DNA from: Streptomyces caniferus
GTDB lineage: Bacteria > Actinomycetota > Actinomycetes > Streptomycetales > Streptomycetaceae
Assembly: GCF_009811555.1 (NCBI RefSeq)
Contig: NZ_BLIN01000007.1
Span: 186,001-250,000 of the forward strand
DNA length: 64,000 nucleotides
Direction of reading: 5' to 3'
In this document: positions 41,010 through 56,017 of the stretch, one piece after another
Layout of the letters: each line of letters opens with the position of its first letter
Position numbering within the stretch: position 1 is the first letter of the stretch
The notes under the pieces: generated by a model
What the model saw: only the letters and a program-made list of their open reading frames with translations
Told to the model about the DNA's origin: nothing
Databases searched by the model: none
Translations under genes and position numbers: made by a program

Positions 41010-41106
41010 ACGACGAGACTGCGCCGCATGCTGAGCGGTTCACCACCACCCACGGGTGGAACCGCAAGACTCCACCCACAGGTGGAGCCCCGGGGATGAT
41101 GCAGGC

Positions 41107-41484
41107 ATGCCCTCTCTGCCCGTCGCACCCCGCCCCCTGAACCACTCCGAGCGAGCCGTACTGGAACACCTCCTCACGGCCGACTTCCCCGGCGCGTCCG
41201 CACTCCGAAGCCAACTGGACCGGACGGAGGTCGTAGCCGTCTGGGCCCCCGGTTCCGTGAGCGTCGACCTCCGGGTACGCGAACCAGCACGGCCCGCGGC
41301 CCTGCCCTCCCGACTCGTACCCGTCGACGCACACGTACACGACCGATCCGGCGCACACACCGGCGAACTGCTGGTCTGGCTCGACGCCGGCACCACCCTG
41401 TCGGCCCTGGAATACGCCTGGACCACGAACGAGATGCCTGCCCGCCTGCCGCCTGTCGATCGAGTGCGGGTCAGGGTGCGCTGA
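41107..41484 (+). CDS. conserved hypothetical protein
   Basis: A 125-residue protein beginning MPSLPVAPRPLNHSERAVLEHLL. It reads as a small alpha/beta protein of the kind common and unnamed in Streptomyces: an N-terminal helix, strands with DLRVREPARPA, and a helix SALEYAWTTNE. No catalytic motif is visible. ATG 41107 is taken as start because the family-like sequence begins there; the frame continues upstream to 41056. Confidence 0.65.
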   Translation: MPSLPVAPRPLNHSERAVLEHLLTADFPGASALRSQLDRTEVVAVWAPGSVSVDLRVREPARPAALPSRLVPVDAHVHDRSGAHTGELLVWLDAGTTLSALEYAWTTNEMPARLPPVDRVRVRVR

Positions 41485-41811
41485 CGGCTTTCCGTTGAAG
41501 CCGGGATCGAACGCAGCCACGAGCATTCATCAGCGACGGCGGACAACACGTCAGAGATCGTGAAGGACCCGAATGCACCGGTGAAGGTGACACATGCCAA
41601 CTAGACCGTGTCTCTTCGATCATGCGATTCGTCGAGTTTGGGTACGGGGATCAGTATGCGATGGGTGCTGACGGGCTGACCATGGCAGAGCGATTCGGAG
41701 GCTGACGGCAGTGGCCCATCGCGGGAGCTGGCGGACAGGAAATTGCGTCGAACGCGGAGTCGATCTTTGAGAAGGTCGTGAGTGTCCCGGGTCTACAGCG
41801 AAAGGAAGCCC
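41485..41811. other. region without a gene; possible insertion-sequence end
   Basis: A 327-bp gap. The segment from about 41604 (GTGTCTCTTCGATCATG) has the look of an IS5-family terminus followed by an early transposase-like GCGATGGGTGCTGACGG, but there is no open transposase frame and I could not find its partner repeat. Confidence 0.3.
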
Positions 41812-42222
41812 GTGCCGCGTGCTGTCACGTTGATTCGTTCTGCATCCCTGTCCGATGTCGCCGAGTACTCCTACGCTGCCACGGCCCCGGCCGAGTCGCG
41901 GCTGATCTTCCTGGCCGGAGCATGTCCGCTGAATGAGGACGGTTCCACCGCGGCAATCGGAGACGTCGCGGGGCAGGCGGCCAAGGCCGTGGAGAACATG
42001 CGGACCGCTCTGGCAGACTCCGGCGCGTCACTCCACGATGTCATCAGCACCCGCGTTCTCGTTGCCTCCCACCGGCGGGAGGACCTGGTGACGGCGTGGG
42101 GGGTTGTCCGGACTGCGTTCGGCGACCACGACGTGCCCAGCACGTTGATGGGTGTCACCGTGCTCGGCTACGACGGCCAGCTCGTAGAGATCGAGGCCAT
42201 CGCCGCTGTGCTCGATTCCTGA
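41812..42222 (+). CDS. RidA/YjgF-family protein
   Basis: A 136-residue protein of the RidA (YjgF/YER057c/UK114) superfamily with family motifs such as LIFLAGACPLNEDGS, QAAKAVENMRTALADSGASLHDV and the closing VEIEAIAAV. RidA-type enzymes hydrolyse reactive enamine/imine intermediates; other subfamilies act on related compounds. The key Arg seen in RidA (in the R-V-E-I-E stretch) is not obvious here, so it may belong to a Rid4-7 type. GTG 41812 has AAAGGAAG upstream. Confidence 0.82.
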   Translation: MPRAVTLIRSASLSDVAEYSYAATAPAESRLIFLAGACPLNEDGSTAAIGDVAGQAAKAVENMRTALADSGASLHDVISTRVLVASHRREDLVTAWGVVRTAFGDHDVPSTLMGVTVLGYDGQLVEIEAIAAVLDS

Positions 42223-42279
42223 GCCGACGGACCCTCCCTGCAAGGACGAACAACCGCCTCGCCCGCGTTCTGGACCCGA

Positions 42280-42950
42280 TCACGACCGGAGCCAAATGAG
42301 GAGGGCGGCAGCTGTGACGGTGCCGAGATAGTGGTACCCGCGCTTGTCGTAGTGGGTGGCGACGGCCCTGAACTGCTTGAGCTTTCCGATAGCCCGCTCC
42401 ACCGTGTTGCGATCTTTGTACCGGCTCTTGTCGAAGGCCGGGTGCCGTCCGCCGTGCGCCCCCGGCGCAGGCGAGCGGCCTTGTGGCCTTCTTCTCCGGG
42501 ATCACGTGCCGGATGCCGCGCTGGCGGAGGTAGGCGCGGATCTTGCGGTTGGTGCACCGCCTCCGCCAGCAGGAGCCGCAGGATCATGTGCGCGTGCAGG
42601 TGAACTCATCTTTGTGGCACCCCCTTTGAAAGCCAGGTGCGGCGGGAGGCGGGTTCGCAGGTGCACCGGCGGCGTGCTGGTGGGCCCGCACAGAGGTGGA
42701 GTCGACGTTGACGTTCCAGTCGAGGTCGCCCTCGGCGTCGGCAGCGGCCTGGACGTGCTGGAGGCATCTCTCCCAGGTGCCGTCGGCCCACCACAGCAAA
42801 TGCCGCTTGTGGACCGTCTTCCACGGGCCGAAGCGTTGGAGAAGTTCACGCCACTGCACCCGGTGCTGAGTCGGTGAACGATTCCGTTGATCACCTGCCG
42901 GTGGTCCCGCCACCGGCCGCACCGATTGTTGCTCACCGGCAGCAGCGGCT
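42280..42950 (-). pseudogene. decayed IS5-family transposase
   Basis: Read leftward, pieces of a Streptomyces IS5-type DDE transposase appear in changing frames: WRDHRQVINGIVHRLSTG, then PWKTVHKRHLLWWADGTWER and DWNVNVDSTSVRAHQHAAG, then a jump to RGIRHVIPEKK-like and YDKRGYHYLGTVTAAALLIWLRS before a stop at 42280. The middle of the protein, with most of the DDE core, is missing, and at least two frameshifts separate the parts. No intact terminal repeats were found. Confidence 0.8.
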
Positions 42951-43266
42951 CCAGGTTTGATACCGAGGGCGAGCGGAATGTGGCGGGGGCTGTGGGGCGA
43001 CACACCGCGATCGGGCTGTCCGTCGTCACGGCCCGGCGAGGCTCGCTATCAGGCTCCTGCTCGCCGACCAGGAGGGCAGCCAACTCGTCGGCACCGTGGA
43101 CAAGTTCACGTTGGAGCGGAACTGCCCGAATCGTCAGCGGGTCCGGTCCGTCGTGTCCTAGAGTGCGAGCGCGGCCGAGACCAGGAAGCGTGAGCTGGAG
43201 GCCGAGAGACGTACGAACGTTGAGATCGTCAAGGTTCCGATCTTCAGAAGCGTGGGGGAAGAGCTG
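42951..43266. other. no supported gene
   Basis: A 316-bp stretch between the transposase remnant and a small hypothetical gene. Short frames exist, but none looks like a complete gene. Confidence 0.35.
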
Positions 43267-43527
43267 ATGGATGAGGACAAGAGGAAGGGCGCCGAGCTAC
43301 CACCCTTGCTCTCCCGGCTCGTGGACGTGGCGGTGTGGGCCAGGACAAACAGTGATCTTGTCTGGGACAGGCAAGCAGATGGAAGGTTCCGCGCTGGACT
43401 CGTCCTCAAGTTCTCCGCTTCCCAGTCGGTCATGCTGAAGATCGAGAAGAATCCTGGCAGCCGTCTCGACTGGCAGTTCGGTCCCGCCAAGCCCCTCCCC
43501 AAGCTGCGCAGGAAGCCTCTGCGCTGA
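43267..43527 (+). CDS. small hypothetical protein
   Basis: An 86-residue frame (MDEDKRKGAELPPLLSRLVD...) with GGGGGAAG just upstream of ATG 43267; GTG 43252 is an alternative start. It contains aromatic and charged segments (VAVWARTNSDLVWDRQADGRFRAG) but no known domain. It lies in a region of remnants, and the sequence may itself be the end of a longer lost gene. Confidence 0.35.
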   Translation: MDEDKRKGAELPPLLSRLVDVAVWARTNSDLVWDRQADGRFRAGLVLKFSASQSVMLKIEKNPGSRLDWQFGPAKPLPKLRRKPLR

Positions 43528-43758
43528 CACGTGAACCCACGCCCTCTACGTTCCGAAGCACTTGGGTGGGGGAGGTGCCTGGGATTGGTGTGCTCCTCAC
43601 CTGCGTCGATGGTTCGTACGCTTCCGCGCTCGTTCAGCGTTGTGCGTCGGCAATGTCACGCAATTCGACACGCGCTTCGTCCAGTCACCTTGGTGTAGGT
43701 AGGAACGTGAGGTGCCTTTCAGCGTCTTGTTCTGGCAAGGCCTGCCAGACTCCGTCGG

Positions 43759-44856
43759 TCAGCCGCACGGCGAGATCACCAGCGGCCCGTCGGGGACGGT
43801 CGCGCCGGTGGTGCTCATCAGGGCGCGCAGTCCGGCGCCGATGCCGATCCCGGCGGCCAGGCCGGTGACCGCGGCGACCGCGCCGACCACGAACGCCTCG
43901 ATCAGCACCGAGCGGGTGACCTGACAGCGGCTGGCGCCGACCGCGCGCAGCAGCGCCAGCTCCTTGGTGCGCTGGGCGACCAGCATGGTGAAGGTGTTGG
44001 CGATGATGAAGACACCGACGAACAGGGCGATACCGGCGAAGGCGAGCAGGCCGGTCTTCACGACCTCCATCTTCTTGGCGGTCAGCTCGGCCTGGGTGTC
44101 GGCGAGTTGCTTGCCGGTGTGCGCCTCGGCGCTGTCCGCGGGCAGAATCCCTTCGATCGCGGCCTTCAGGGCCGTCGGTGAGGTGCCGGGGGCGGCCTTG
44201 ACGTCGATCTCGCTGAACGTGCCGGGTGCGGCGAACAGCTTCTGTGCGGTCGGGGTGTCGAACAGCGCGAGGCTGCCGCCGGCCGCGACCGCGCCGTCGT
44301 CGGTGGTGAAGACGCCGGTCAGCTTCTGCTCACGGACCGGTCCGTCGACGGAGATCCGGACGGTGTCGCCGACCTTGTAGCCGGCCTGGTCCGCGGTGCG
44401 GGCGTCCAGCGCGACCTCGTGCGCGCCGTGGGGGGCCGTGCCATCGCGCAGCGGGTAGCGGGCGTCCCTGCCGTCCTTGCCGGGGAAATAGTTGCCGCCG
44501 AGGGTGGAGAATCCGTCGCCGACCGGCTGGCCCTTCTTGTCGGCGATGGCGGTGAAGCCGGAGACGGTGCCGGTGACGGAGGCGGCGCCGGGCACCTGGG
44601 CGGCCCGGTCGAGCAGCTTGCGGTCAAGCCGGGGGACCGCGCCGGGCGCGCCGCTGCCGCTGTCCGAGGACTTCGGCAGGATGGCGACGTCGACGTTGTC
44701 GTAGCCCTTTTGGGAGCTGGCCCGGTAGGCGTCGGAGAGGGTCGAGGTGAAGACCAGGGTGCCGGAGACGAAGGCCACGCCGAGCATCACGGCGAGGACG
44801 GTCATCAGCAGCCGGGCCTTGTGCGCAAGCACATTGCGCAAGGCGGTACGGAACAT
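43759..44856 (-). pseudogene. truncated FtsX-type ABC permease
   Basis: The first 360 residues form a normal FtsX/MacB-like permease: TM1 at about 17-38 (ARLLMTVLAVMLGVAFVSG), a large extracellular region, TM2 (about 272-297) and part of the FtsX domain with ELALLRAVGASRCQVTRSVLIEAFVVG. After ATVPDGPLVISP the frame meets CG and a stop. Full-length actinobacterial members run to about 840 residues with a second FtsX domain, so more than half is lost at a junction near 43770. TM4 of the first unit is also missing. The intact ATPase gene lies 47 bp upstream. Confidence 0.82.
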
Positions 44857-44903
44857 GAGGGGTCCTGGAGGAGAGATCCGAGTACGGGGGCGGCTGCCGC
44901 TGA

Positions 44904-45716
44904 TCAGTTCGTACGGCCCTGGGGGCCGTGGCCCGGGGCCTGGGGGGTGTTCCCGGAAAACCGCCGCATGCGCTCCAGCACCGTGTCGGCGGTCGGGCCG
45001 CGCATATCGTCGACGATCCGGCCGTCGGCGAGGAAGACCACCCGGTCCGCGTAGGAGGCGGCGACCGGGTCGTGGGTCACCATCACCACGGTCTGGCCCA
45101 GTTCGCGCACGGAGTCGTGCAGAAAGCCGAGGACCTCGGCGCCGGAGCGCGAGTCGAGGTTTCCGGTGGGTTCGTCGGCGAAGATGATCTCGGGCCGGGA
45201 GGCCAGCGCGCGGGCGACCGCGACGCGCTGCTGCTGGCCGCCCGAGAGCTGGCTGGGGCGGTGCTTGAGGCGGTCGGCCAAGCCGACGGTCTGTACGACG
45301 CGGTCCAGCCAGGCGCGGTCGGGCTTACGGCCGGCGATGTCCATGGGCAGGGTGATGTTCTCCAGGGCGGTCAGGGTCGGCAGCAGGTTGAACGCCTGGA
45401 AGATGAAGCCGATCTTGTCGCGCCGGATTTGGGTGAGTTCCTTGTCCTTCAGCACGGTGAGTTCGGTGTCGCCGATCCGGGCGGAGCCGCCGGAGATCGA
45501 GTCCAGCCCTGCCATGCAGTGCATCAGGGTCGACTTGCCGGACCCGGAGGGGCCCATGATCGCGGTGAACTGGGCCTGCCGGAAGTCGACGGAGACCGCG
45601 TCCAGGGCGACCACCTGGGTCTCGCCCTGTCCGTAGACCTTGGTGAGGTCCGTGGCACGGGCGGCCGCCGCGGTGGCGCGGGTGGCGGTGGCGACGCCGG
45701 AGTGGGTGGTGGTCAC
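44904..45716 (-). CDS. MacB/LolD-type ABC transporter ATPase
   Basis: A 270-residue ATP-binding protein with Walker A GPSGSGKST (residues 55-63), Q-loop region FIFQAFNLLPTLTALEN, signature LSGGQQQR, Walker B IIFADEPTGNLDSRSG and the switch His in VTHDP. This is the standard ATPase partner of FtsX permeases (lipoprotein or peptide export family). The GTG at 45716 with AGGAG nine bases upstream sets the start, rejecting the longer frame. Since its permease gene is truncated, the transporter is probably not functional unless another permease pairs with it. Confidence 0.9.
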   Translation of the reverse strand: MTTTHSGVATATRATAAAARATDLTKVYGQGETQVVALDAVSVDFRQAQFTAIMGPSGSGKSTLMHCMAGLDSISGGSARIGDTELTVLKDKELTQIRRDKIGFIFQAFNLLPTLTALENITLPMDIAGRKPDRAWLDRVVQTVGLADRLKHRPSQLSGGQQQRVAVARALASRPEIIFADEPTGNLDSRSGAEVLGFLHDSVRELGQTVVMVTHDPVAASYADRVVFLADGRIVDDMRGPTADTVLERMRRFSGNTPQAPGHGPQGRTN

Positions 45717-46184
45717 GGGAACGGGCTCCTGTCGGCAGGTAGGAAGGACCTGATCCGCCGCGGCCACGAGGGCTCGGGCCGCGAACGGGAGGCGGACGCT
45801 TGCCATCGTGGGCCAGAGAGCGGAGGGAAGGCGTCCATCCATCTGCCATTCCTTGACCACCCTTGGGTCGTATCCGTGGCCGCCTCCGGTCATCCCTGCG
45901 GAGGAGCCGGAGCCCGATGCCGTTGCCGCGGCCCGCGGCAGCCGGACGGGCGGCACAGCGGGGGTGACGGACATGCCGATCAGGCGTCGGGCTCGGTCAA
46001 TTGAATTCGTGGGCGACGCTGCCGAGGACGACCTGAGCGCGGCCGGGATGCTGGGGAATCGGGCACGGGGGCACACTCGTGCCCCTCGCATCCACTACGT
46101 CAAGGTTGGCCGACACGTCCATTCCGCAGAGCGCGCGCGACGCGTACATCGCGGCCCGCACCGTAGAGCCTGTGCGCCGTTCCC
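45717..46184. other. intergenic, no supported gene
   Basis: A 468-bp region upstream of the ABC ATPase. It contains a possible TTGACC element near 45850 on the plus strand. No complete gene is recognised before the 7-bp repeat begins. Confidence 0.35.
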
Positions 46185-46268
46185 CCTCCGACCTCCGACC
46201 TCCGACCTCCGACCTCCGACCTCCGACCTCCGACCTCCGACCTCCGACCTCCGAATTCCGAATTCCGG
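46185..46268 (+). repeat. heptanucleotide tandem repeat, ten perfect copies
   Basis: CCTCCGA is repeated ten times without error (46185-46254), then two degenerate units in which CC becomes AT (ATTCCGA and ATTCCGG). A 7-bp period changes frame with each unit gained or lost, and copy number is expected to vary by slippage. No gene depends on it in the present sequence. Confidence 0.95.
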
Positions 46269-46331
46269 CTGGCGGCCTGACGGCCCGCGAGCGCAGGCCG
46301 CAGCGGCGGCGCTACGGATCCGTGCGCCGGC

Positions 46332-46650
46332 TCACCTCGGGCGCTGGCAGGCCCGTTATCCGGGTGTGAGCGGCGTCCTGGGGACTGGACCGACCCGTAC
46401 GCCGGGTCGGTCAACTTCCTTGCGTACGCGACCAAGTGGATCGACGAGCGAGGGCCGGCTGCGACCACGGACGAGCTGTACCGCAGGTTGCTGTGCCTGC
46501 ACCTGGAGCCTTTGCCGGGCGAGCTGGACGTCAACGAGATCAGTGTGGCGAAGGCCAGGGCTGGGCGGGCCGAGCGGCTGAAGGCGACGGGCACGACCAC
46601 GGTCGCCAAGTCCTACCGCCTGCTGAAGGCGATCATGAACAGAAGCCTTC
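46332..46650 (+). pseudogene. fragment of a tyrosine-recombinase integrase
   Basis: RWQARYPG near 46350 and, after a frame change, WTDPYAGSVNFLAYATKWIDER, ELYRRLLCLHLEPL and TTTVAKSYRLLKAIMN match the N-terminal arm-binding and core-binding domains of actinobacterial SAM-like integrases. Everything after LLKAIMN, including the catalytic R-H-R-Y domain, is missing. The break lies directly at the left arm repeats of the first att-like module, where integrase genes of tRNA-targeted elements normally end. Confidence 0.75.
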
Positions 46651-46905
46651 TGGTGCGGATCTGGTGCAAGACGCCTGAACTGGCCCGGACAACAAAGAAG
46701 GCCCAGGTCTCCGACCTGGGCCTCAACTATGGAGCGGGTGACGGGAATCGAACCCGCGCTCTGAGCTTGGGAATCAAGGGCGCTCGTGACAGCCATTGAC
46801 GTGCTGACCTGCGTAAACGCGGGCTGTGGGTGCAGCGGGGAGGGGAAGCGGGCACCAGTATTGACCGTGATTTACCGTCCGTTAGGACACGCAGAGGGCA
46901 CGGCG
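46651..46905 (-). repeat. tRNA-Gly(CCC) attachment-type module A
   Basis: A 255-bp module. It has a direct-repeat pair beginning TGGTGC at 46651 and 46662, then a perfect 10-bp terminator hairpin at 46700-46722, then 43 bp (46731-46773) identical to the tRNA-Gly(CCC) 3' half from anticodon loop TTCCCAA to the acceptor end, read on the minus strand. At 46884-46905 follows a second 11-bp repeat pair (AGGACACGCAG, AGGGCACGGCG). The tRNA 5' half is absent. Confidence 0.85.
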
Positions 46906-47361
46906 CTGGAGCGGGGAGCGACGGCGGCGAGATCCGTGGCCTCGGTCGGCGTGGCTGCCTCTCTGTGGCGGCACCAGCGCGACCGCCGATGCCCTGGTGT
47001 GCGCATGCGAAGCACCTTCTGGGGGCGTGTGGGAAGAACGGCTGTCCTGACTGCCGGAGCTGCAAGGATCTGTGCCATGGATGTTTCGAGGTCTGCCAAC
47101 GACGCAACTGCTGTAGGAGAAGGGGGAGTTCGCCCTGGGACGGCACCGTCGCGGTAGGCCATGATCCTCATATCTCCCCACGGCGTGGTGCACCTGCCCG
47201 GCAGGTGCAGCCATCACCCCTACAAGAGCCACCGAGAGGCGGGCTGGGGATGGGTGATGGAGCCAGATGAGGGGTCTGGGAGGGGATCAGCCGCGAAAGC
47301 CCGCTCCGAGCGACGCACGGCAATGCGGCGCGTGTCGCCCGGGAACGATGTGGTCACTGCC
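46906..47361. other. region without a supported gene inside cargo segment 1
   Basis: About 450 bp between the right arm repeats of module A and the adk remnant. Frames exist on both strands but none has a domain or a good start. Confidence 0.35.
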
Positions 47362-47647
47362 TCATGCGGGAGCCGCGACAGAGCATCGAGACCGGCAGCG
47401 GCGCCCGAGCAGCGCTGCGTTGATGCGGGCCGAAGTCGGTCTGCCTCCCGTGCACACCACTGTCGGCTGGATGTGGATTGCTCCGGCCACAGCAGCGGGC
47501 CGGGTGTGGGGACGGCCGTCGGGCAGGCGGATGCGCACCTTCTTCAGGGCGGGGATGAACCTCTGGGATCGCGCGAGGTTCTTGGCGAGGTACGCGGCCC
47601 GGGTACCCTTGCCGCCCCCCCGGGGGTCCGACGAGGACGATTCGCAT
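47362..47647 (-). pseudogene. adk: adenylate kinase 5' remnant with a frameshift
   Basis: The ATG overlaps the secY stop (TGATG), as in the secY-adk order of actinobacterial ribosomal operons. Codons read MRIVLVGPPGG, then an extra G in a run of seven shifts the frame. Removing one G restores GPPGGGKGTRAAYLAKNLA, the Adk start with its Walker A loop. After about 25 residues the restored frame no longer resembles Adk and stops at 47362. So this is a broken, truncated copy and not a working gene. Confidence 0.8.
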
Positions 47648-48954
47648 CAGCGGAGGAACCCTTCGTAATTGCGCTGCTGAAGCTGGCTCTCGATCTGCTT
47701 CACGGTCTCCAGGCCCACACTCACGATGATGAGGATGCTTGTCCCGCCGAAGGGGAAGTTCTGGTTCGCGTGGAACAGCACCAACTCCACTGTTGGTACG
47801 AGCGCGATCAGCCCCAGATACAGCGAGCCCGGCCACGTGATCCGGTTGAGCACGTAGCTGAGGTACTCGGCCGTCGGGCGACCGGCCCGGACGCCCGGGA
47901 CGAAGCCACCGTGCTTCTTCATGTTGTCGGCGACTTCTTCGGGGTTGAAGCTGATGGCCACGTAGAAGAAGGCGAAGAACACGATCAACAAGACGTACGC
48001 GGCGAGGTAAACGGGGTGGTCTCCCTTGGTGAAGGTGGTGGCGATCCAGGTCGCCCATGCCGCCTTCGACCCGCTGAACTGTGCGATGAGCGCCGGGATG
48101 GAGAGCAGCGATGACGCGAAGATGACGGGAACCACACCCGCCTGATTCACCTTGAGCGGGATGTACGTGGACGTACCGCCATAGGACCGGCGGCCGATCA
48201 TCCGCTTCGCGTACTGCACCGGGATGCGCCGCTGGGCCTGCTCGACGAAGACCACCAGGGCGACCATTGCCAGGCCCACCAGGATCACCGCGAAGAACTC
48301 GATCCAGCCGCCGGCGAGCTTGCCGGTGAGCTTGACCTGCCACAGCGCGCCCGGGAAGCGGGCGGCGATCGAGATGAACATCAGGATCGACATGCCGTTG
48401 CCGATACCGCGGTCGGTCACCATCTCGCCCAGCCACATGACCAGGGCCGCACCGGCGGTCATCGTGATGACCATCGTGATGGTGGTGAAGACCGAGCCGT
48501 TGGGCACGATCTGGCGCGTGCAGCCCTGGAAGAGCGAACCGGCGCGGGCGGCGGTCACCAGGGCGGTGCCCTCCAGGGCGGCGAGCGCCACGGTCAGATA
48601 GCGGGTGTACTGGGTGATCTTCGCCTGGCCGGACTGCCCCTCCTTCTTGAGGGCCTCCAACCGCGGGATCACCACGGTCAGCAGCTGGAGGATGATGCTC
48701 GCCGTGATGTACGGCATGATCCCCAGCGCGAAGATCGTGACCTGCAGCAGCGCACCACCGCTGAACATGTTCACCAGGCCGAACAACCCGCTGTTGGCGT
48801 GGTTCCGCTCCATGCAGAACTCGACGTTCGCGTACTTCACTCCAGGGACCGGGATGTGCGCTCCGACCTGGTAGAGCACGATGATGCCCAACGTGAACAG
48901 CAGCTTCTTGCGCAGGTCGGGCGTCTTGAACGCTCGGGCGAACGCGGTGAGCAC
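47647..48954 (-). CDS. secY: SecY preprotein translocase channel subunit, likely second copy
   Basis: A complete 435-residue SecY with ten membrane helices. Family landmarks are MLTAFARAFKTPDLRKKLLFT at the start, the plug region after HIPVPGVKY, GIMPYITASIILQLL, the cytoplasmic loop VVFVEQAQRRIPVQYAKR, and SILIIVSVGLETVKQIESQLQQRNYEGFL at the end. It forms the Sec pore with SecE and SecG. The GTG has AGGAGG four bases upstream. No ribosomal protein genes surround it and the adk gene behind it is broken, so this looks like a relocated copy of the spc-operon secY, with the housekeeping gene presumably elsewhere. Confidence 0.92.
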   Translation of the reverse strand: MLTAFARAFKTPDLRKKLLFTLGIIVLYQVGAHIPVPGVKYANVEFCMERNHANSGLFGLVNMFSGGALLQVTIFALGIMPYITASIILQLLTVVIPRLEALKKEGQSGQAKITQYTRYLTVALAALEGTALVTAARAGSLFQGCTRQIVPNGSVFTTITMVITMTAGAALVMWLGEMVTDRGIGNGMSILMFISIAARFPGALWQVKLTGKLAGGWIEFFAVILVGLAMVALVVFVEQAQRRIPVQYAKRMIGRRSYGGTSTYIPLKVNQAGVVPVIFASSLLSIPALIAQFSGSKAAWATWIATTFTKGDHPVYLAAYVLLIVFFAFFYVAISFNPEEVADNMKKHGGFVPGVRAGRPTAEYLSYVLNRITWPGSLYLGLIALVPTVELVLFHANQNFPFGGTSILIIVSVGLETVKQIESQLQQRNYEGFLR

Positions 48955-49200
48955 GGTGCCTCCTGCGCCTCCCGCCACTCTTGGGGCAGGGAGGCGACGG
49001 TCTTGAGGATCGATGAATACGTAGCGGCTGTACCGCGCGGAGCTCGCCCGCAGGGCGGGTTCCGAGGCAGGCCCCCGTGGCCGACTTGGTTGCCCAGGGT
49101 GCGGTGCGCGCGCAAAAGTCGCCGTCTCCCTCTCGCCCAGGTGTACGGACGCTGGGCTTCCGCACACACCCATCGGGACCGCTTGACCGCGGCCAAGGCG

Positions 49201-49677
49201 CTACCTGGCGGTCGGGGTTTGTGTCGGCGTCGGAACCGGCTCGGCGGGTGAGGGACGGTACGGCATCGGCACCAGGCCGGTAGTCGGGGCGCGGGTCGGC
49301 ATCGGCACCGGGCCGGCAGTTGGGGCGCAGGTCGGCATCGGAACCGACCGGGTGGTCGACGTGCAGGTCGGCATCGGCGCCTTCGTCCCCCTCGGCACGG
49401 GGCGAGGAGTCGACGGCACCGGGGCCGACTCGGCAGGGGTGCCGGGGCGGCGCTGAGGGCCCGTGGGGCCGTCCTGAGCGAAGGAGCTCGGCAGGACCAT
49501 CAGTCCGACTCCGAGCCCGGCAGCGGTCAGCACTGATCCGGTGGCCGCCCAAGCCGCTCGAGCCCGCCGGCGTGCGCGAACGCCGGCGTGCAGTCGGTCG
49601 CGGTGCCGGTCCTCATAGAGCGTGTCCTCCTGGCCGTCGCGCATCATCCGCGCCAGCTCCTGCTCGAAGTGATCCAT
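49201..49677 (-). CDS. membrane protein with repetitive Pro/Thr tail, partner of the sigma factor
   Basis: A 158-residue protein starting MDHFEQELARMMRDGQEDTLYEDRHRDRL, with one membrane helix (about residues 44-66), then a long extracellular-type tail built of about five repeats of 12-13 residues based on VPMPTxAPTxGP. The start has AGGAGGG upstream, ten bases after the sigma factor stop, so they form an operon. The soluble N-terminal region plus one helix resembles anti-sigma or sigma-associated membrane proteins. The tail may reach into or sense the wall; that is inference. Confidence 0.72.
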   Translation of the reverse strand: MDHFEQELARMMRDGQEDTLYEDRHRDRLHAGVRARRRARAAWAATGSVLTAAGLGVGLMVLPSSFAQDGPTGPQRRPGTPAESAPVPSTPRPVPRGTKAPMPTCTSTTRSVPMPTCAPTAGPVPMPTRAPTTGLVPMPYRPSPAEPVPTPTQTPTAR

Positions 49678-49687
49678 GGCTCCCTCC

Positions 49688-50200
49688 TCACTCCACCGGC
49701 TCTGCCTCAGCCAGAAGCTGACGCAGCCGTGCAACGCCGCGTGCCGTCAGCGAACGGGCGGTACCCACCGGACAGCCCAGTACCTCCGCGACATCCCGCT
49801 CGGGCAGGTCCTGGTAGTAGCGCAGCACCACCGCAGCCCGCTGCCGCGCCGGCAGCAACGCCAATACGGCCTCCAACCGGGTCTGCTCGTCCACGGCAGC
49901 GGTCTCGTCCGCCACCTCGGGCGGGTCGGGCAGCTGGTCCACAGGGTGCTCGCCCCACCAGCGACGCCGTGCCGAGCGAGCCGCAGCACGGGCCAAGACC
50001 CTGCGCACGTACGCCTCGGGTGCCTCCTTGGCCACCTTCGGCCAGGCGAACCACAGTTTGACGAGCGCTTCCTGCAGCAGATCCTCGGCCCGGTGTCGGT
50101 CTCCACCGGTGAACAGCCGCGCCAGGTGAAGCAACGCCGACCACCGAGCCGCCACGAACCGGTCGAACTCATCGGCCCGCAACTGCCCCATCAGCGTCAC
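49688..50200 (-). CDS. ECF RNA polymerase sigma factor, SigE family
   Basis: A 170-residue sigma factor. Region 2 is DEFDRFVAARWSALLHLARLFTGGDRHRAEDLLQEALVKLW with the conserved DLLQE, and region 4 is LLPARQRAAVVLRYYQDLPERDVAEVLGCPVGTARSLTARGVARLR. It matches the actinobacterial 'SigE family' (SigE-like, about 170-190 residues), whose genes are commonly followed by a one-helix membrane gene, as here. GTG 50200 is preferred; ATG ten bases later is possible. Confidence 0.9.
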   Translation of the reverse strand: MTLMGQLRADEFDRFVAARWSALLHLARLFTGGDRHRAEDLLQEALVKLWFAWPKVAKEAPEAYVRRVLARAAARSARRRWWGEHPVDQLPDPPEVADETAAVDEQTRLEAVLALLPARQRAAVVLRYYQDLPERDVAEVLGCPVGTARSLTARGVARLRQLLAEAEPVE

Positions 50201-50277
50201 CCCCTCACCTCAACACGCCCCTACACCCTCAATAAAGGCACTGGCCCCTGCCCCGCTATGCACCCCCGACAAGTGAC

Positions 50278-50778
50278 ATGGCTCACGCATCCGTCCGGGC
50301 CGTGCCCACGGCGCGACGTGTCCGGGCCGGCGGCGGCAGGCCGGACGGGATGCTTGCGGGCGGTAGACGAGTCAGTCCGCATGCCTGCGGGCCCGTACAC
50401 CCCGACGACCAGGACGCGAAGACTGCCGACGAGGTACGCAACGCGTGGAACGCATGGCACCCGAACTGTCCCGCTGGCCTGTTGCCACAGTCCGGGACAG
50501 TTCCGGACCGCGAGGCGTCGGCCTCCCCGACCGCAACTCCCCAACAGGCTCCACCGAGGCGGGACGTCCCCGCCCCACTGCCGGAGCCGTTGACCGCCCG
50601 TGAGGTAGAGGTTTTGGCACTGATCGCGCAGGGGCTGTCCAACGCCGAGATCGGCGAACGCCTCTATCTCGGCCGCGCCACGGTCAAGACGCACATCAAC
50701 CGCATCTTCGCGAAGACCGGCGCACGCGATCGCGCACAGGCCGTCCGCTACGCCTACCGCACCGGACTGGCGGACTGA
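50278..50778 (+). pseudogene. HTH-only remnant of a NarL-type response regulator
   Basis: The C-terminal 65 residues are a good LuxR/NarL helix-turn-helix (LTAREVEVLALIAQGLSNAEIGERLYLGRATVKTHINRIFAKTGARDRAQAV). The receiver domain that should precede it is missing; the upstream 100 codons (PNCPAGLLPQSGTVPDREASAS...) resemble a scrambled linker with no Asp phosphorylation site. It may be a decayed regulator, or a short DNA-binding protein if a start near 50578 is used. Confidence 0.55.
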
Positions 50779-51057
50779 GCACTGCACTTGACTCGCTACG
50801 TGGCTCGCCTTTTGCCGGGCCCCGCTACCTCTCACGCCGACCGGTCCGAGGCGGCCGTGTGGACGAGCCGCGGCTTCCCGGCATCCCAGCCGGTTGAGGG
50901 GCGTCGGCCCCGTGCTTTCCGGTCGGCTGCTACGACGCGCGCGACGGTCGAGTGGCGGGGATCGTGGGGAGTGCGTCTCGGGAAGTGCGGCGAAGGGTGA
51001 ACGCGCGATTGGCTGCTCTGCGCCCTGAGCGTCAACCGCCCGGTTTTTGGCGCCATG

Positions 51058-51312
51058 TGGTGCGCAAGTGGTGCGCGAGCCTGTGAGAGGTCTGGACAAC
51101 AAACAAGACCCCGGTCTCTGACCAGGGCCTTCGCTGTGGAGCGGGTGACGGGAATCGAACCCGCGCTCTGAGCTTGGGAACCAACGGGACCAGTGAGCTC
51201 GATTCGGCCCGTGACCAGGGGAAACGCCGCTCTACCTGACTGTTCGGTGGTGCACTGACGTACTGTTCTCGACCGTTGTTGACCGTGCTGGAGGGCACGG
51301 TTGGGGCACGAG
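51058..51312 (-). repeat. tRNA-Gly(CCC) attachment-type module B
   Basis: A 255-bp module built like A: 11-bp repeats TGGTGCGCAAG and TGGTGCGCGAG (51058-51079), terminator-like hairpin (about 51108-51128), tRNA-Gly(CCC) 3' half at 51138-51180 identical to A, and right repeats GAGGGCACGGT and TGGGGCACGAG (51291-51312). The sequence beyond the anticodon loop differs from A. Confidence 0.85.
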
Positions 51313-51436
51313 CCTGGTCAGTGCAGCCTCAGCGCTGCTCTTGGGCCTGGCTGGGCGCGATGGCGACGCGTCTCCTATGAGGTGGGAGAAGTGGCATTGC
51401 CATCGCAAGGTATCTGCCCCTGAAGGCTGACCGCGT

Positions 51437-52135
51437 TCACGTCCCCGGCTCCACGTGGACTGCTGGTTCGGCGCCGCGCCGCGGGTGCTGGTGTATGTGG
51501 TTCTGCTGTACCGCGGTGAGGGCGCGGACGACGAGGATGGCGGCCACGGCCGCGCCGATGACGGCCGCGTCGGTCACCAGCAGCAGGGGCGTGTCCGTGT
51601 AGGCGCGGGCGATGACGGTGTTCGTGGTGCCGGTGTACAGGCCCGCCCCGCCCAGGAAACCGACCAGCCACAGGCCCCACCACCAGTTCACGGCGTGCGG
51701 CAAGCGCTTGTCGGGCGCGCTGGCGCGGTGGATGTCCGCGATGATCCCGCGGGGGATCCACAGGCTGGCGATGGGGACGATCCAGCCGGCGTAGACCCAT
51801 GGCCCGGCGTAACGCGGGCGCTGTCCCGAGAGTGTGCCCGCGTTGTCCCGCACGCGCCAAAGCCAGAGCAGGAAGGCGACCGCGCACAGCACTATGGCCG
51901 CGTCTCCCAGGTTGATGACGAGGTGGTGGTAGTCGTTCTCCAGCGCGGTCAGCGGGCGGTGCCGGCCGCCGCCCTGGTCCAGCGGTCCGGATGGCGGCTG
52001 TCCGGCCACGGTGAGCCGGATCTGCCACACGGCCCGGGCCGCCCAGGCCGCGCCGGCGAGGACGAGGGTGGCGACGGCGCAGCCGGCCGCTCCCCGGACC
52101 GGGCGCAGGGCGGGCGGTGCTATGTGATCGTTCAC
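51437..52135 (-). CDS. DUF4328 membrane protein
   Basis: A 232-residue protein with about six membrane helices. The DUF4328 signatures include VYAGWIVPIASLWIPRGIIADIHRAS and the Trp-rich NWWWGLWLVGF. The family is widespread in Streptomyces, and its members are often attached to or beside signalling genes; function is unknown. GTG 52135 has AAAGGA seven bases upstream. It is the first gene of cargo segment 2 and stands apart from the others. Confidence 0.8.
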   Translation of the reverse strand: MNDHIAPPALRPVRGAAGCAVATLVLAGAAWAARAVWQIRLTVAGQPPSGPLDQGGGRHRPLTALENDYHHLVINLGDAAIVLCAVAFLLWLWRVRDNAGTLSGQRPRYAGPWVYAGWIVPIASLWIPRGIIADIHRASAPDKRLPHAVNWWWGLWLVGFLGGAGLYTGTTNTVIARAYTDTPLLLVTDAAVIGAAVAAILVVRALTAVQQNHIHQHPRRGAEPAVHVEPGT

Positions 52136-52591
52136 GCGATCGTCCTTTACTGCGGGTCTCTTACGGGAGGTCGCGCCGGCCGTACATGGCATCGACGACC
52201 TCGCCTCACCGCCGACGGGCTTCGGCGTCGAGGGGCGAGGAGTCCAGGGTGTCTGCGGGCTTGAGGAGCAGCTGACCTCGGCCGTGGCGCACCGTCGCGC
52301 CGGGGCCCGAACGGGCCCTCCGGCTACGGTACCGAACCGCTTCTGCCACAGGGTGACCTGCGCGGTCAGTATGCCGTCGGGCCGCCACAGTGGCGTCGGG
52401 GAGTCCGGCCTGCTGAGTCCTCTCGCGGGATCCCTGTAATGGTTGTCATGCCTCGAGGTATTACATCAGCCTGTCGGTATGCGCTCTTCGACGCCCAGTG
52501 CCCCGGGCACTGACTCTTCCCACACCCACCAGCGAGACAGAACGGCCACCGGTTCCACGGAGGTTCCGTTCGCCTTGGGGAGGGCTGACCG
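52136..52591. other. region without a supported gene inside cargo segment 2
   Basis: A 456-bp divergent gap between the DUF4328 gene and the aminotransferase; it probably holds both promoters. Short reverse frames are not convincing. Confidence 0.4.
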
Positions 52592-53746
52592 GTGACCGGC
52601 TGCCCGGTGACTCCCTCCGGCTCACCCATCCTGGAGATGGCCCGCCGCGCGGCCGAGTATCGCGCGGAAGGCCGTCGGATCATCGACCTCACGCTCGGCG
52701 AGCCCGACTTCGCCCCGCCTGTGCACGCGGTTCGTGCCGCCCAGGAAGCCGCTGCCCGCCCGTTGGGCTACGCCCCCGCCAACGGGATACCGGAACTGCG
52801 CCGTGCCGCACGGCGCGCAGTGGAACGGGACCGCGCCCTGAGTTACTCGGATGCCGAGGTGGCCGTGGGATGCGGCGCCAAGCAGGTCATCTTCAACGCG
52901 TTCTTCGCCACCCTGGGCCCGGGCGACGAGGTGATCATCCCGGCGCCCTACTGGGCAAGTTACCCGGACCTGGTGCGCCTGTGCGGCGCCGTGCCCGTGA
53001 TCGTTCCCTGCTCGGCCGACTCGGGGTTCAGACTCGCTCCCGACGCCCTGGAAGCGGCCCTGACCGCGCGCACGCGCTGGGTCGTGCTCAACGCTCCCGG
53101 AAACCCCTCGGGCGCCACCTACAGCCATGACACCCTGACCGGTCTCGCCGAGGTCCTGCGACGGCACCCCTCGGCGATGATCCTCTCGGACGAGATCTAC
53201 GCCCACATCGGCTACGCCGAGGGCGAGTACTTCAGCATCGCGCAGGTCGCGCCTGACCTGCGCGAGCGGATCCTGCTCGTGGACGGCGTCTCCAAGGCGT
53301 ACGCGATGACCGGCTGGCGGGTCGGCTGGGGGTTCGGGCCGGCCGAACTGGTCCGTCGTATCACCGCCGTACAGACACAGAACTGCACGCAGACGGCGAC
53401 CGTGAGCCAGATCGCCGCGGCCGCCGCCCTGGAGGGGCCTCAGGGGATTCTGGCGGAACGATGTGGAACATACCGTCGACGGCGCGATGCGGCGCTGGCG
53501 ATTCTGCGGCAGAGCCGGCACCTGGACACGGTCGAACCAGACGGTGCGTTCTACCTCTTGCCGCGCCTTGCGAGCGGCGACGACCTCGCAGCAGCGGACA
53601 CCCTCCTCGAAGCGGGATGCGCGACCGTCCCGGGCAGCGCCTTCGGCGCGCCAGGCCACCTGCGGCTCTCCTTCGCCACCGACCTCGCCACCCTGGAAGA
53701 GGGCTGCCGCATCATCGTCGCCACGCTGGACGGGACTCCGGCGTGA
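52592..53746 (+). CDS. class I/II PLP-dependent aminotransferase (aspartate aminotransferase group)
   Basis: A 384-residue fold-type I aminotransferase. Key parts: LTLGEPDFAPP (about residue 33), YAPANGIPELRRAARRAV, VLNAPGNPSGATYS (the conserved NPTG-type Asn), the ILSDEIYAHIGY Asp-Tyr pair, and the PLP lysine in VDGVSKAYAMTGWRVGW (about 228-244, Lys near 234) with the substrate Arg in HLRLSFA near the end. It transfers amino groups between an amino acid and a 2-oxoacid. A GTG start with GGGGAGGG upstream is used. The stop overlaps the exporter start as GTGA. Confidence 0.9.
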   Translation: MTGCPVTPSGSPILEMARRAAEYRAEGRRIIDLTLGEPDFAPPVHAVRAAQEAAARPLGYAPANGIPELRRAARRAVERDRALSYSDAEVAVGCGAKQVIFNAFFATLGPGDEVIIPAPYWASYPDLVRLCGAVPVIVPCSADSGFRLAPDALEAALTARTRWVVLNAPGNPSGATYSHDTLTGLAEVLRRHPSAMILSDEIYAHIGYAEGEYFSIAQVAPDLRERILLVDGVSKAYAMTGWRVGWGFGPAELVRRITAVQTQNCTQTATVSQIAAAAALEGPQGILAERCGTYRRRRDAALAILRQSRHLDTVEPDGAFYLLPRLASGDDLAAADTLLEAGCATVPGSAFGAPGHLRLSFATDLATLEEGCRIIVATLDGTPA

Positions 53747-54660
53747 TCGCGCTGACCGTCAAGGCGCTGATTCCGGTCGTCCTGCTGATCGCGCTGGGCT
53801 ACGCCCTCAAGCGATCGATGATCACCACCGAGCGATTCTGGTCCGAAGCCGAGCGCCTGAGCTATCACGTGCTGCTCCCGGCTCTGTTCCTGCACAGCCT
53901 GGCGACGGCCGACACCGACGATCTTCCGGTAGCGGCCCTGGCAGGCACTCTGGTCGCCTCCACGGTGACAGTCGCGGTGCTGGTCATCGCCTTCAGGCCC
54001 ATGATGCGACTGAAAGACGACGGCTTCACCTCCGTCTTCCAGGGCAGCGTCAGGTTCAACAATTACATCGGCGTGACGATCGCTGCCGGTCTGTACGGCA
54101 CCCAGGGCGTCGCCACCGCGGCGGTCTGCAACGCGGTGATCGTGCCCACGGTCAACGTCTTGTGCGTGCTGGTCTTCGCGCGGTTCGGGAGCGCACGCCT
54201 GCGCCTAGCGGGCATCGTCAAACAGCTCGTGACCAACCCGCTCATCCTCGCCTGTGTGGGAGGCATCCTCCTTCAGGCACTCGATCTGCGCCTGCCGCCG
54301 GGCATCGAGCCGGCGCTTCAGGCACTCGGAGCCGCCTCGATGCCGCTGGGGCTGCTGTGCATCGGCGCCGCGCTGCGCTTCGGTGCGGCACGCTCGTGGG
54401 CGGCACCGATCCTCACGTCGTCGTCCGTCAAGTTCGCCCTCATGCCCGCCGTGACCTTCCTGGCGGCTCAGATGGCCGGCCTGGGCTCCCACGCGCTGAT
54501 CATCGCCGTGCTCTTCCAGGCTCTGCCCACGGCATCGTCCTCGTACATCATGGCGAGACAACTCGGCGGCGACGCGCCGCTGATGGCCGGCATCACCGCG
54601 ACGCAGACACTTCTGGGCATCGCCGCAGTCCCGTTCGTCCTGGCACTGGTCTCGGCATAG
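53743..54660 (+). CDS. AEC (auxin efflux carrier) family transporter
   Basis: A 305-residue protein with ten predicted helices and the AEC pattern: an N-terminal half MIALTVKALIPVVLLIALGYALKR, a charged middle loop, and a C-terminal half with ALPTASSSYIMARQLGGD matching the family's PTA motif. Bacterial members export small carboxylates or amino acids, and this one is translationally coupled to an aminotransferase. The pair suggests making and exporting, or importing and converting, one amino/keto acid. Confidence 0.87.
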   Translation: MIALTVKALIPVVLLIALGYALKRSMITTERFWSEAERLSYHVLLPALFLHSLATADTDDLPVAALAGTLVASTVTVAVLVIAFRPMMRLKDDGFTSVFQGSVRFNNYIGVTIAAGLYGTQGVATAAVCNAVIVPTVNVLCVLVFARFGSARLRLAGIVKQLVTNPLILACVGGILLQALDLRLPPGIEPALQALGAASMPLGLLCIGAALRFGAARSWAAPILTSSSVKFALMPAVTFLAAQMAGLGSHALIIAVLFQALPTASSSYIMARQLGGDAPLMAGITATQTLLGIAAVPFVLALVSA

Positions 54661-54681
54661 CACCTGCGCCAGGGCGGAACG

Positions 54682-55206
54682 CTAGCGCCGCGTCATGCGG
54701 TGGCGGCGGACCGCATCGGTGTTGGCGCAGCGCGCGCAGCAGTAGGCGCGGCGACCGTTGCGGCTGGTGTCGACGAAGGCGGTCCGGCAGGAGTCCAGCG
54801 CGCAGACGCCCAGCCGTTCCCCCTCGGCCTCCATGGTGAAGATGGCCAGAGCTCCCGCGGTCACGGCCTTCACGCGGCTTTGGACGTCCTGGGCGTCCGG
54901 TGCGAAGTGCAGATGCGGCCGCAAGTCGTCGTGCGTGGTCAGGTACACGCTTCCCGCGCCGTCCGCGAGCAGAGCGTTGATCCTCTCGCACCGTTCGCCC
55001 TGCGAGGCAGCCTCGAAAACGGGCCGCAAAAGCCGCGACCACGCCCTGATCTCCTCACCGGCCGAGCCGGTGACACGCGAACGCCGGATCGCATGCTCCT
55101 GCAAGGCCCGTTCCAGAGCCTCAGCCCCCCAGGAACCACTCGACTCAAGATTCACCAGCGACACAGCAAGGCGAACCCCGACCATGTTGTCATGCTCAAA
55201 CTTCAC
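54682..55206 (-). CDS. CGNR zinc-finger transcriptional regulator
   Basis: A 174-residue protein. The C-terminal part is the CGNR zinc finger: LGVCALDSCRTAFVDTSRNGRRAYCCARCANTDAVRRHR, with Cys pairs and the RNGRRAYC core. The N-terminal half is the usual ABATE ligand-type domain (NMVGVRLAVSLVNLE...). Such proteins are found beside transporters and enzymes that they probably control, and this one converges with the aminotransferase-exporter pair. The GTG at 55206 is the annotated choice; an ATG a few codons later is possible. Confidence 0.87.
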   Translation of the reverse strand: MKFEHDNMVGVRLAVSLVNLESSGSWGAEALERALQEHAIRRSRVTGSAGEEIRAWSRLLRPVFEAASQGERCERINALLADGAGSVYLTTHDDLRPHLHFAPDAQDVQSRVKAVTAGALAIFTMEAEGERLGVCALDSCRTAFVDTSRNGRRAYCCARCANTDAVRRHRMTRR

Positions 55207-55410
55207 TCAACCATTGCACCACAGGTCGGGCCCGGAGCGGTGGTCCAGCTGCCCAGGGCACCAGGCGGCCCGACCGAGGCCGTCCCACCCACTTGACGCG
55301 TTGGTGGCGCAAGCCATAGGAGTCCCGTCTCGGGATTCGAGGCGCCGTCCACCGTGTGACCGCTGAGGTGTCGTGCGCCACCTCTCTGTGCAATCCATAG
55401 AGGGAAGTTG

Positions 55411-55665
55411 GGACACGCCAAGGGCACGCCCGCACCGGAAGGTCTATACAACAAACAAGGCCCAGGTCACCGACCGGGGCCTCAACCATGGAGCGGGTGA
55501 CGGGAATCGAGCCCGCGCTCTGAGCTTGGGAATCACGGGTTTGCCGAGCGGTTAACCGGGCTCTGACCTGCTGCGATGGGGCTTTGAACGGCTCGTCTGG
55601 TGGCCCCGTCGCGTACCCGAATTCCCCGTGGCTTACGGGGCCTTCGGGCACGCAACGGGCACGGC
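55411..55665 (-). repeat. tRNA-Gly(CCC) attachment-type module C
   Basis: A 255-bp module like A and B: left repeats GGACACGCCAA and GGGCACGCCCG (55411-55432), hairpin at about 55458-55480, tRNA-Gly(CCC) 3' half at 55490-55532 with one substitution in the T loop (T54 to C on the tRNA strand), and right repeats TCGGGCACGCA and ACGGGCACGGC (55644-55665). Confidence 0.85.
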
Positions 55666-55876
55666 AGCCCCTCGTTGCGAACTACAGGCGGGCCGACCGG
55701 TGAGGTCTGCTGGCGTGGTCAGCAGGGGGCTAGAGGGGGATGGCGGACGCTAGCGGTTCTTGCGGTTGCGGTGCTTCACTGCTGTAACCGCAAGTGGCGC
55801 CGAACAGTCCTGCGAGGGTCACCGCAGACCGTAGGCGCTTGCCACCTGGGCTGCCGGAGCCCACACGATCACCAGA

Positions 55877-56017
55877 ATGCGCGAGGCTGCCGCCGACGAA
55901 TCGCACGGACGGGGCCTGTGCCTTGTCGATGCGCTGGCGGACTCGTGGAGCGCCGGCCCGAGCCGCTTCGGCGGAACAGTCGTCTCGTTCTCCGTCGATG
56001 AGGCTTGGAAGCCCTGA
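55877..56017 (+). pseudogene. C-terminal remnant of an RsbW-like ATPase
   Basis: The frame reads HGRGLCLVDALADSW and ends FSVDEAWKP, the closing G box and last strand of the GHKL regulatory ATPase family. The N box and first half are absent, so only about 45 residues remain next to module C. Confidence 0.6.

Follow-up and report, generated by a model that had tools for sequence, protein, structure and literature searches.

A displaced array of integrase-free units from the tRNA-Gly(CCC) locus of Streptomyces caniferus probably arose by accretion with integrative and conjugative elements

A 64,000-nucleotide stretch of Streptomyces caniferus DNA (RefSeq assembly GCF_009811555.1, contig NZ_BLIN01000007.1, positions 186,001 to 250,000; hereafter the window) contains three modules, M1 to M3, that carry the 3′ half of a tRNA-Gly(CCC) gene and bound two segments of cargo genes, E1 and E2. 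We consider it probable that they are a displaced piece of an accretion array that belongs at tRNA-Gly(CCC), is served by the integrases of actinomycete integrative and conjugative elements (AICEs) and resembles cis-mobilizable elements (CIMEs). The evidence lies in the modules themselves, in the arrays found at the tRNA gene of relatives, and in units that are present in some strains and absent from others. Genomes, contigs and loci are given by our own labels (G, C and L numbers; G000 is the S. caniferus genome).

The modules have the layout of attachment sites

Read on the minus strand, each module holds the tRNA-Gly(CCC) 3′ half, from the anticodon loop onward, and its terminator between two pairs of 11-bp repeats. 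A first-pass annotation of this DNA had described three such modules, and we found them at the same positions and with the same layout. With up to 3 mismatches allowed, the window has 3 occurrences of a 21-base core pattern, whereas 100 dinucleotide shuffles gave 0. Each of the three cores lies between arm pairs that deviate from the motifs used by no more than 1 mismatch, and the core-to-core spacings are 4407 and 4352 bp. ARAGORN found no tRNA in the window.

The annotation had also taken the modules for integrase attachment sites, and the core with arms at fixed positions, in the window and across relatives, agrees with this. We compared 154 cores, using arm motifs and mismatch limits that were fixed after the array sequences had been inspected. 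The outer (L) arm pair was found at 85 of the 123 displaced cores and at 0 of the 31 intact tRNAs; the inner (R) arm pair was found at 38 of 123 and 19 of 31, respectively. Among 3538 random control windows, 5 contained the L arm and 56 the R arm. Of 85 L arms, 83 begin 124–129 bp upstream of the core start; of 57 R arms, 52 lie 105–109 bp downstream. In G030, G036 and G019 the R arm falls within the 3′ end of a tyrosine integrase gene. This distribution is what would be predicted for attB-half sites versus the end sites of elements. We excluded the possibility that M1 to M3 are mere sequence common to tRNA genes, because every intact tRNA lacks the L arm upstream and because the units vary among strains.

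Arrays at tRNA-Gly(CCC) in Streptomyces

The 9.15-Mb S. caniferus genome contains 13 module matches. The intact tRNA-Gly(CCC) lies on another contig (C5:4220019), together with three further cores at 2.5–2.7-kb spacing. Of the remaining matches, three lie in the window, two on C2, two on C5 (one of them weak) and one on C1; the last is another tRNA-Gly gene. Strong matches among these cores are 84–95% identical. A module match, which alone may be a tRNA gene, was found in 59 of the 61 genomes searched. We then compared the regions of 19 same-genus genomes, hand-picked mostly for many matches or long contigs. All 19 have an intact tRNA-Gly(CCC), and all extra cores in these regions lie on its 3′ side in one orientation. 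Twelve regions carry at least two units in tandem, five carry one and two carry none (G015 and G031).

The longest array that we saw is in G227 (C24:20001-64926; L243, L191 and L244), with 12 cores and 11 units in about 34 kb; its tRNA is not on that contig. In G012, a one-contig genome, the array lies no more than 62 kb from the contig start (L053–L056, C1:1-80000).

An integrase-free unit is present or absent at the core

A junction that differs between two genomes is our best evidence that an integrase-free unit can be exchanged site-specifically. In G005 the order is tRNA, A, B, C; in G202 it is tRNA, four units, A, C. Units A and C of G202 align with those of G005 over nearly their full length (94.7% and 90.5%). 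The A|C junction of G202 is a hybrid: it is closer to the A|B junction of G005 up to the core start and closer to B|C from there on. Both G005 junctions are similar to it over the core's first 75 bp (0.80–0.88 versus 0.92–0.96), so the switch falls at the core start or close to it. This junction could also result simply from loss of B. A third genome, G139, has the order tRNA, two units, A′, B; after B it likewise diverges from G005 beyond the core. Unit B is 6.9 kb long and encodes an RHS-repeat protein, and it has no match to the integrase, RepSA or TraB. Thus, for B, the claim that integrase-free units are present or absent among strains at tRNA-Gly(CCC) was borne out.

A small AbiEii-type cassette in many genomes

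A second unit, the 1.34-kb unit adjoining the G005 tRNA, encodes an AbiEii protein (PF08843, from a Pfam scan of the cassette) and a partner. As a query it gave matches at E 1e-40 or better in 166 of 392 genomes; a separate survey of 392 genomes left 9 unscored. Most of the matches listed cover the gene region only, without the core; in at least 15 genomes besides G005 the match starts at the core (positions 1–4). We inspected 22 places (20 regions plus G005 and G019). At 12 of these the cassette is a separate unit of 1.2–1.37 kb between two cores, at 8 it is part of a larger or one-sided unit, and at 2 there is no core. Close members of the 12 are 93–95% alike; that of G413 is only about 70% alike. 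Where the tRNA is visible, the cassette ranks first from it (G005, G077), second (G382), third (G019, G139) or fifth (G202).

We also compared the surroundings of the cassette. Among 13 cassettes (78 pairs; the far end of the G203 cassette was placed by hand), at least 300 bp are common within 3 kb on the left in 5 pairs, one of them by the tRNA flank only, and on the right in 2. Compared with G005, flank and cassette identities agree in G202 (95.6/95.2). The cassette is far lower in G139 (94.9/83.6) and G227 (94.5/86.3), and higher than the flank in G019 (90.9/92.9) and G077 (90.0/93.9). These values suggest that both descent and transfer contribute to its spread.

Other small units in relatives encode a Phd antitoxin, a Shedu protein, an AbiEi-like regulator, or a PIN protein together with a CcdA-like antitoxin. 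These are Pfam assignments; the PIN and CcdA-like matches lie barely above the cut-off. The partner of the AbiEi-like gene is, in our own reading, a candidate nucleotidyltransferase. Pfam gave no match for the AbiEii partner or for a nucleotidyltransferase-like protein of G012. PADLOC, run on 7 proteins, assigned AbiEii to the first and one weak regulator model to another. We claim no enrichment of any cargo class over all units.

Full cognate integrases are found next to the tRNA

We searched for the integrase directly in 107 units. The set is enriched for the AbiEii cassette, for which 20 of its regions were chosen. Of 29 tRNA-proximal units, 6 encode a full cognate integrase (more than 75% of the profile), against 0 of 78 distal ones (Fisher p 2.6e-4). 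Three of these proximal units are complete AICEs: unit 1 of G030, G019 and G036 has an integrase, the replication initiator RepSA and an FtsK/TraB transfer gene within one att-bounded unit, with Pfam support in G030 and G019. E1 and E2 do not have this set. Distal units have a median length of 2.7 kb and proximal units one of 7.6 kb. Shorter pieces of the integrase are present in units of both kinds, and units that lack a full one have C-terminal stubs of it at their R arm. In unit 1 of G088 the last residues of a helix-turn-helix gene (L154:3424-3816) resemble the C-terminal tail of the integrase. In the S. caniferus genome itself we found no intact close relative of the integrase: its relatives there are fragments, a half copy with a stop, or open proteins at 29–32% identity.

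The array in the window is ectopic

Judged by synteny, the insertion spans about 41.08 to 55.88 kb of the window. The array is absent at this site in six of six relatives compared (G318, G088, G335, G199, G215 and G390), where DNA matching the window up to 40.2–41.1 kb lies 1.1–3.2 kb from DNA matching it from 55.9–56.2 kb onward. These are six of eight genomes searched; the regions of G121 and G289 were left out. The left junction of the leftmost segment, E0, is based on G088, the only relative aligned past 40.2 kb. The right junction interrupts a gene that is longer in G088, as judged by eye. By this comparison the array is displaced from its tRNA-Gly(CCC) home on another contig, and the first-pass reading is changed in this respect.

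Module copies away from the tRNA gene may be common or present in other species, as further module-like matches lie outside the tRNA-Gly(CCC) regions of G030, G007, G026 and G035. In S. caniferus, modules on two contigs (L012, G000 C2:1296692, and L015, G000 C1:207323) have a nearly identical flanking gene (about 250 aa), and the end of a unit thus seems to have been copied inside this genome. The C1 copy has a broken relative of the integrase nearby. Another module, without arms, adjoins a hemolysin III-like gene (L014, G000 C5:3735801). A hemolysin III-like gene is also found in G318, a few kb beyond the home array, which hints at rearrangement via modules.

Segments of the array and their relatives

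The features of the array are collected in Table 1. The segments between the modules had been described as cargo only, and this stands for E1 and E2: their gene content includes no recombinase by Pfam, and the integrase, RepSA and TraB gave no match in either at E 1e-8. The two-segment array is as described. However, the first-pass annotation had overlooked a damaged third segment, E0, whose integrase remnant lies beside M1 and extends into its R-arm repeats; the remnant has no Pfam match. Upstream of it, a 7-bp unit (CCTCCGA) is repeated in tandem over about 110 bp (46171-46282). The sigma factor of E1 is probably of the extracytoplasmic function type, judging from its size and domains. The true start of the Mem_trans-type open reading frame (ORF) in E2 is probably further downstream, because its domain begins at residue 100.

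Table 1. Features of the array in the window
Feature	Position	Strand	Basis or detail
Segment E0, left part of insertion	41084..46650		Left junction from synteny with G088; Pfam
RidA-like gene (E0)	41782-42222	+	Pfam
MacB/FtsX permease (E0)	43759-44856	-	Pfam
ABC ATPase (E0)	44904-46091	-	Pfam
Integrase N-terminal remnant	46368..46658	+	57% identity to residues 56-153 of the 386-aa G030 integrase
Module M1, full attP-like site	46651..46905	-	R arm ~46651-46672, core 46682-46774, L arm ~46884-46905
Unit E1: SecY paralogue and sigma factor	46906..51057		Gene content, Pfam
SecY paralogue, 508 aa (E1)	47647..49173	-	PF00344, E 1.1e-114
Sigma-70 family factor, 170 aa (E1)	49688..50200	-	PF08281, PF04542
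Module M2, full attP-like site	51058..51312	-	Core 51089-51180
Unit E2: DUF4328, aminotransferase, transporter, CGNR zinc finger	51313..55410		Gene content, Pfam
Class I/II aminotransferase (E2)	52592..53746	+	PF00155
Mem_trans-type transporter ORF (E2)	53461..54660	+	PF03547 over residues 100-392
CGNR zinc-finger protein (E2)	54682..55206	-	PF11706
Module M3, full attP-like site	55411..55665	-	Core 55441-55533
Insertion DNA beyond M3, ~211 bp	55666..55876		G088 alignment resumes at 55877

E1 has a relative at the home locus. In G318, the first unit after tRNA-Gly(CCC) contains an E1 homologue at 96% identity, next to a different neighbour. M1 with its R arm is common to the window and G318 at 94% (G318:4118149-4118460); the homology ends at the arm, and the unit that follows is different. 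The R end of E1 (about 740–870 bp) also differs between the two. E2 matched 17 of 121 genomes at E 1e-30, in all except G121 as stretches of a single gene. In G121 a match of 2.6 kb (52614-55224) is 85% identical, and no core was found in the 20 kb examined.

Discussion

We propose that tRNA-Gly(CCC) is an integration hotspot for pSAM2-type AICEs in Streptomyces. An incoming element would enter at the intact tRNA 3′ end and push older units outward, so that units would lie in the order of their arrival. Most units have no cognate integrase and no replication and transfer genes, and retain the core and often the arm repeats. The integrase of a resident or incoming AICE, which we believe does the work, could excise, insert or exchange CIME-like cassettes. 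The piece in the window (E0 with its integrase stump, M1, E1, M2, E2, M3) would have landed elsewhere in the chromosome, at about 41.08–55.88 kb of the window. As we found no intact close integrase relative in the genome, this piece looks stranded unless an AICE arrives, in which case E1 and E2 may still be movable. The first-pass annotation had suggested non-autonomous elements moved in trans. Units without integrase, att-type sites and presence or absence among strains all agree with it, but strict action in trans does not follow, since the data are explained equally well if units travel in cis with a neighbouring AICE.

Several observations weigh against our proposal. A recognizable L arm is missing at 38 of the 123 displaced cores and an R arm at 85, and the AbiEii cassettes of G005 and G019 are without a clear R arm. 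In their last 170 bp (L arm and spacer to the core), the 13 cassettes drop from about 0.85 to about 0.6 identity, so these ends have often been replaced. Cassette identity tracks flank identity relative to G005 (12 genomes; rho 0.69, p 0.013); thus, part of the pattern appears to be vertical. A different tyrosine recombinase is present in a distal unit (G025:3725078-3726205). We checked both junctions of the window insertion and found no core at either outer end, so arrival there was not visibly made by an integrase; a clean site-specific insertion of the array at this site is unsupported. In addition, the two genes of E1 are adjacent without modules in the five best-matching named species, and 0 of 80 loci of the sigma factor hold the core (80 kept of 115 found; 77 Streptomyces, 3 Kitasatospora). 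It seems from this that the cargo of E1 was captured from the chromosome and is not a widespread cassette. The first-pass annotation would have been contradicted by relatives with the same genes and no modules, and for E1 this is partly the case. Support for E1 and E2 themselves as mobile units is therefore weaker than for the AbiEii cassette and B.

How much of the array has moved since it formed can be explained in other ways. If AICEs integrated and then decayed by deletion, with no movement of units since the integrase was lost, strain differences would reflect only deletion and vertical descent. The graded integrase stubs, the correlation between cassette and flank and the agreement of G005 with G202 fit such a fossil array, and PMC9513070 describes AICEs that have decayed until partial integrases, cargo and repeats are left. 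We find a fossil array quite improbable, because 12 genomes have an integrase-free cassette between two cores, at rank 1, 2, 3 or 5 where the tRNA is visible, and because its identity exceeds that of the flank in G019 and G077 and falls 8–11 points below it in G227 and G139. The hybrid junction seen for B also speaks against a fossil, although loss of B alone would yield it too. Another possibility is that RecA-dependent recombination between modules (about 90–255 bp) shuffles, deletes and swaps units, and that the integrase is needed for the first insertion only. The 84–95% identity among strongly matching cores of the S. caniferus genome could feed such exchange, and the loss of identity between L arm and core in otherwise alike cassettes fits crossovers outside the core. 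However, the A|C switch falls at or near the core start, the tracts of homology are short and imperfect, and RecA alone does not place foreign cassettes beside an intact tRNA, as in G005 and G077. We regard RecA recombination as an unlikely explanation.

The array in the window raises a question of its own. It is reasonably likely to be a fragment of the home locus that was moved by one illegitimate or homologous recombination event and is now inert: no core was found at either outer junction, no intact close integrase relative was found in the genome, and E1 is at the home locus in G318. On the other hand, M1 to M3 keep both arm pairs, so excision could occur if an integrase were supplied. 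A single relocation of this kind is compatible with accretion at tRNA-Gly(CCC) as the origin of the array. More tentatively, and with some doubt on our part, tRNA-Gly(CCC) of Streptomyces might be an integron-like platform, where the integrases of passing AICEs act in trans or in cis to insert, stack and exchange cassettes of 1–7 kb that have no integrase, several with toxin-antitoxin or defence genes, as a standing genus-wide store for gene exchange.

The first-pass annotation had matched the array to no named class; we find that it does match CIMEs in accretion with AICEs. In PMC5704250, CIMEs are defined as units that are bounded by att sites, lack the genes for integration and transfer, and share their site with a functional element in tandem. 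E1 and E2 are bounded on both sides by cores and arms, as by attL and attR, and lack integration and transfer genes. CIMEs would arise by deletion from integrative and conjugative elements; an integrase stump is found in E0 and stubs in units of relatives, and none in E1 or E2, while the genes of E1 also occur elsewhere in chromosomes. Unlike the CIMEs of that account, the arrays here can be 11 units long, with units as small as about 1.06 kb, some with toxin-antitoxin or defence genes, and one integrase-free cassette in many genomes. Accretion of CIMEs and AICEs is a known class, and what is new is the scale and form: the arrays are long and their cassettes small, and toxin or defence genes are present in some.

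Related systems have been described in several bacteria. In a Streptomyces population, AICEs are stacked at one tRNA gene, with partial integrases and cargo between direct repeats, and cis mobilization was suggested (PMC9513070). In the sections concerned, that stack is at tRNA-Arg and has one to three elements and one remnant, unlike the arrays here; the main text has 0 occurrences of the term tRNA-Gly. Frankia and Streptomyces avermitilis have two tandem AICEs at one tRNA gene, and the Frankia pair was excised singly and as one circle (PMC3218068). As far as that description goes, both members are AICEs with integrases and, in contrast to our arrays, there are no small integrase-free units. 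The best structural analogue is the series of tandem islands downstream of ssrA in Dehalococcoides, of which 16 of 31 have an integration module (PMC3146451). Those islands use a serine recombinase, and the section on them describes no arm-repeat sites for a tyrosine integrase. Islander takes tRNA-gene fragments as marks of successive island ends and requires an integrase for each island of an array; for tandems of three or more, its table in PMC4383910 has an entry of 4 from 2168 genomes. Under this rule, arrays like those at tRNA-Gly(CCC) would be passed over. In our search of open-access literature, judged from titles and the openings of abstracts of the papers listed, we found no cassette arrays at tRNA-Gly(CCC).

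Chromosomal integrons hold arrays of small integrase-free cassettes with attC sites and toxin-antitoxin cargo, on a fixed platform with the integrase at the insertion end. The arrays here share the small integrase-free cassettes, the toxin-antitoxin cargo and the integrase at the insertion end. They differ in that the site, judged by its layout, is a tRNA-type core with arms, and in that the integrase belongs to a conjugative element and not to a fixed platform.

If our proposal holds, small cargo genes of Streptomyces have a site-specific route of spread that is overlooked by island finders based on integrases. The arrays may also preserve the order in which units arrived at the locus. Last, genes of toxin-antitoxin and anti-phage type (AbiEii, CcdA/PIN, Phd and Shedu) are present as single cassettes, which suggests how such arrays could persist.

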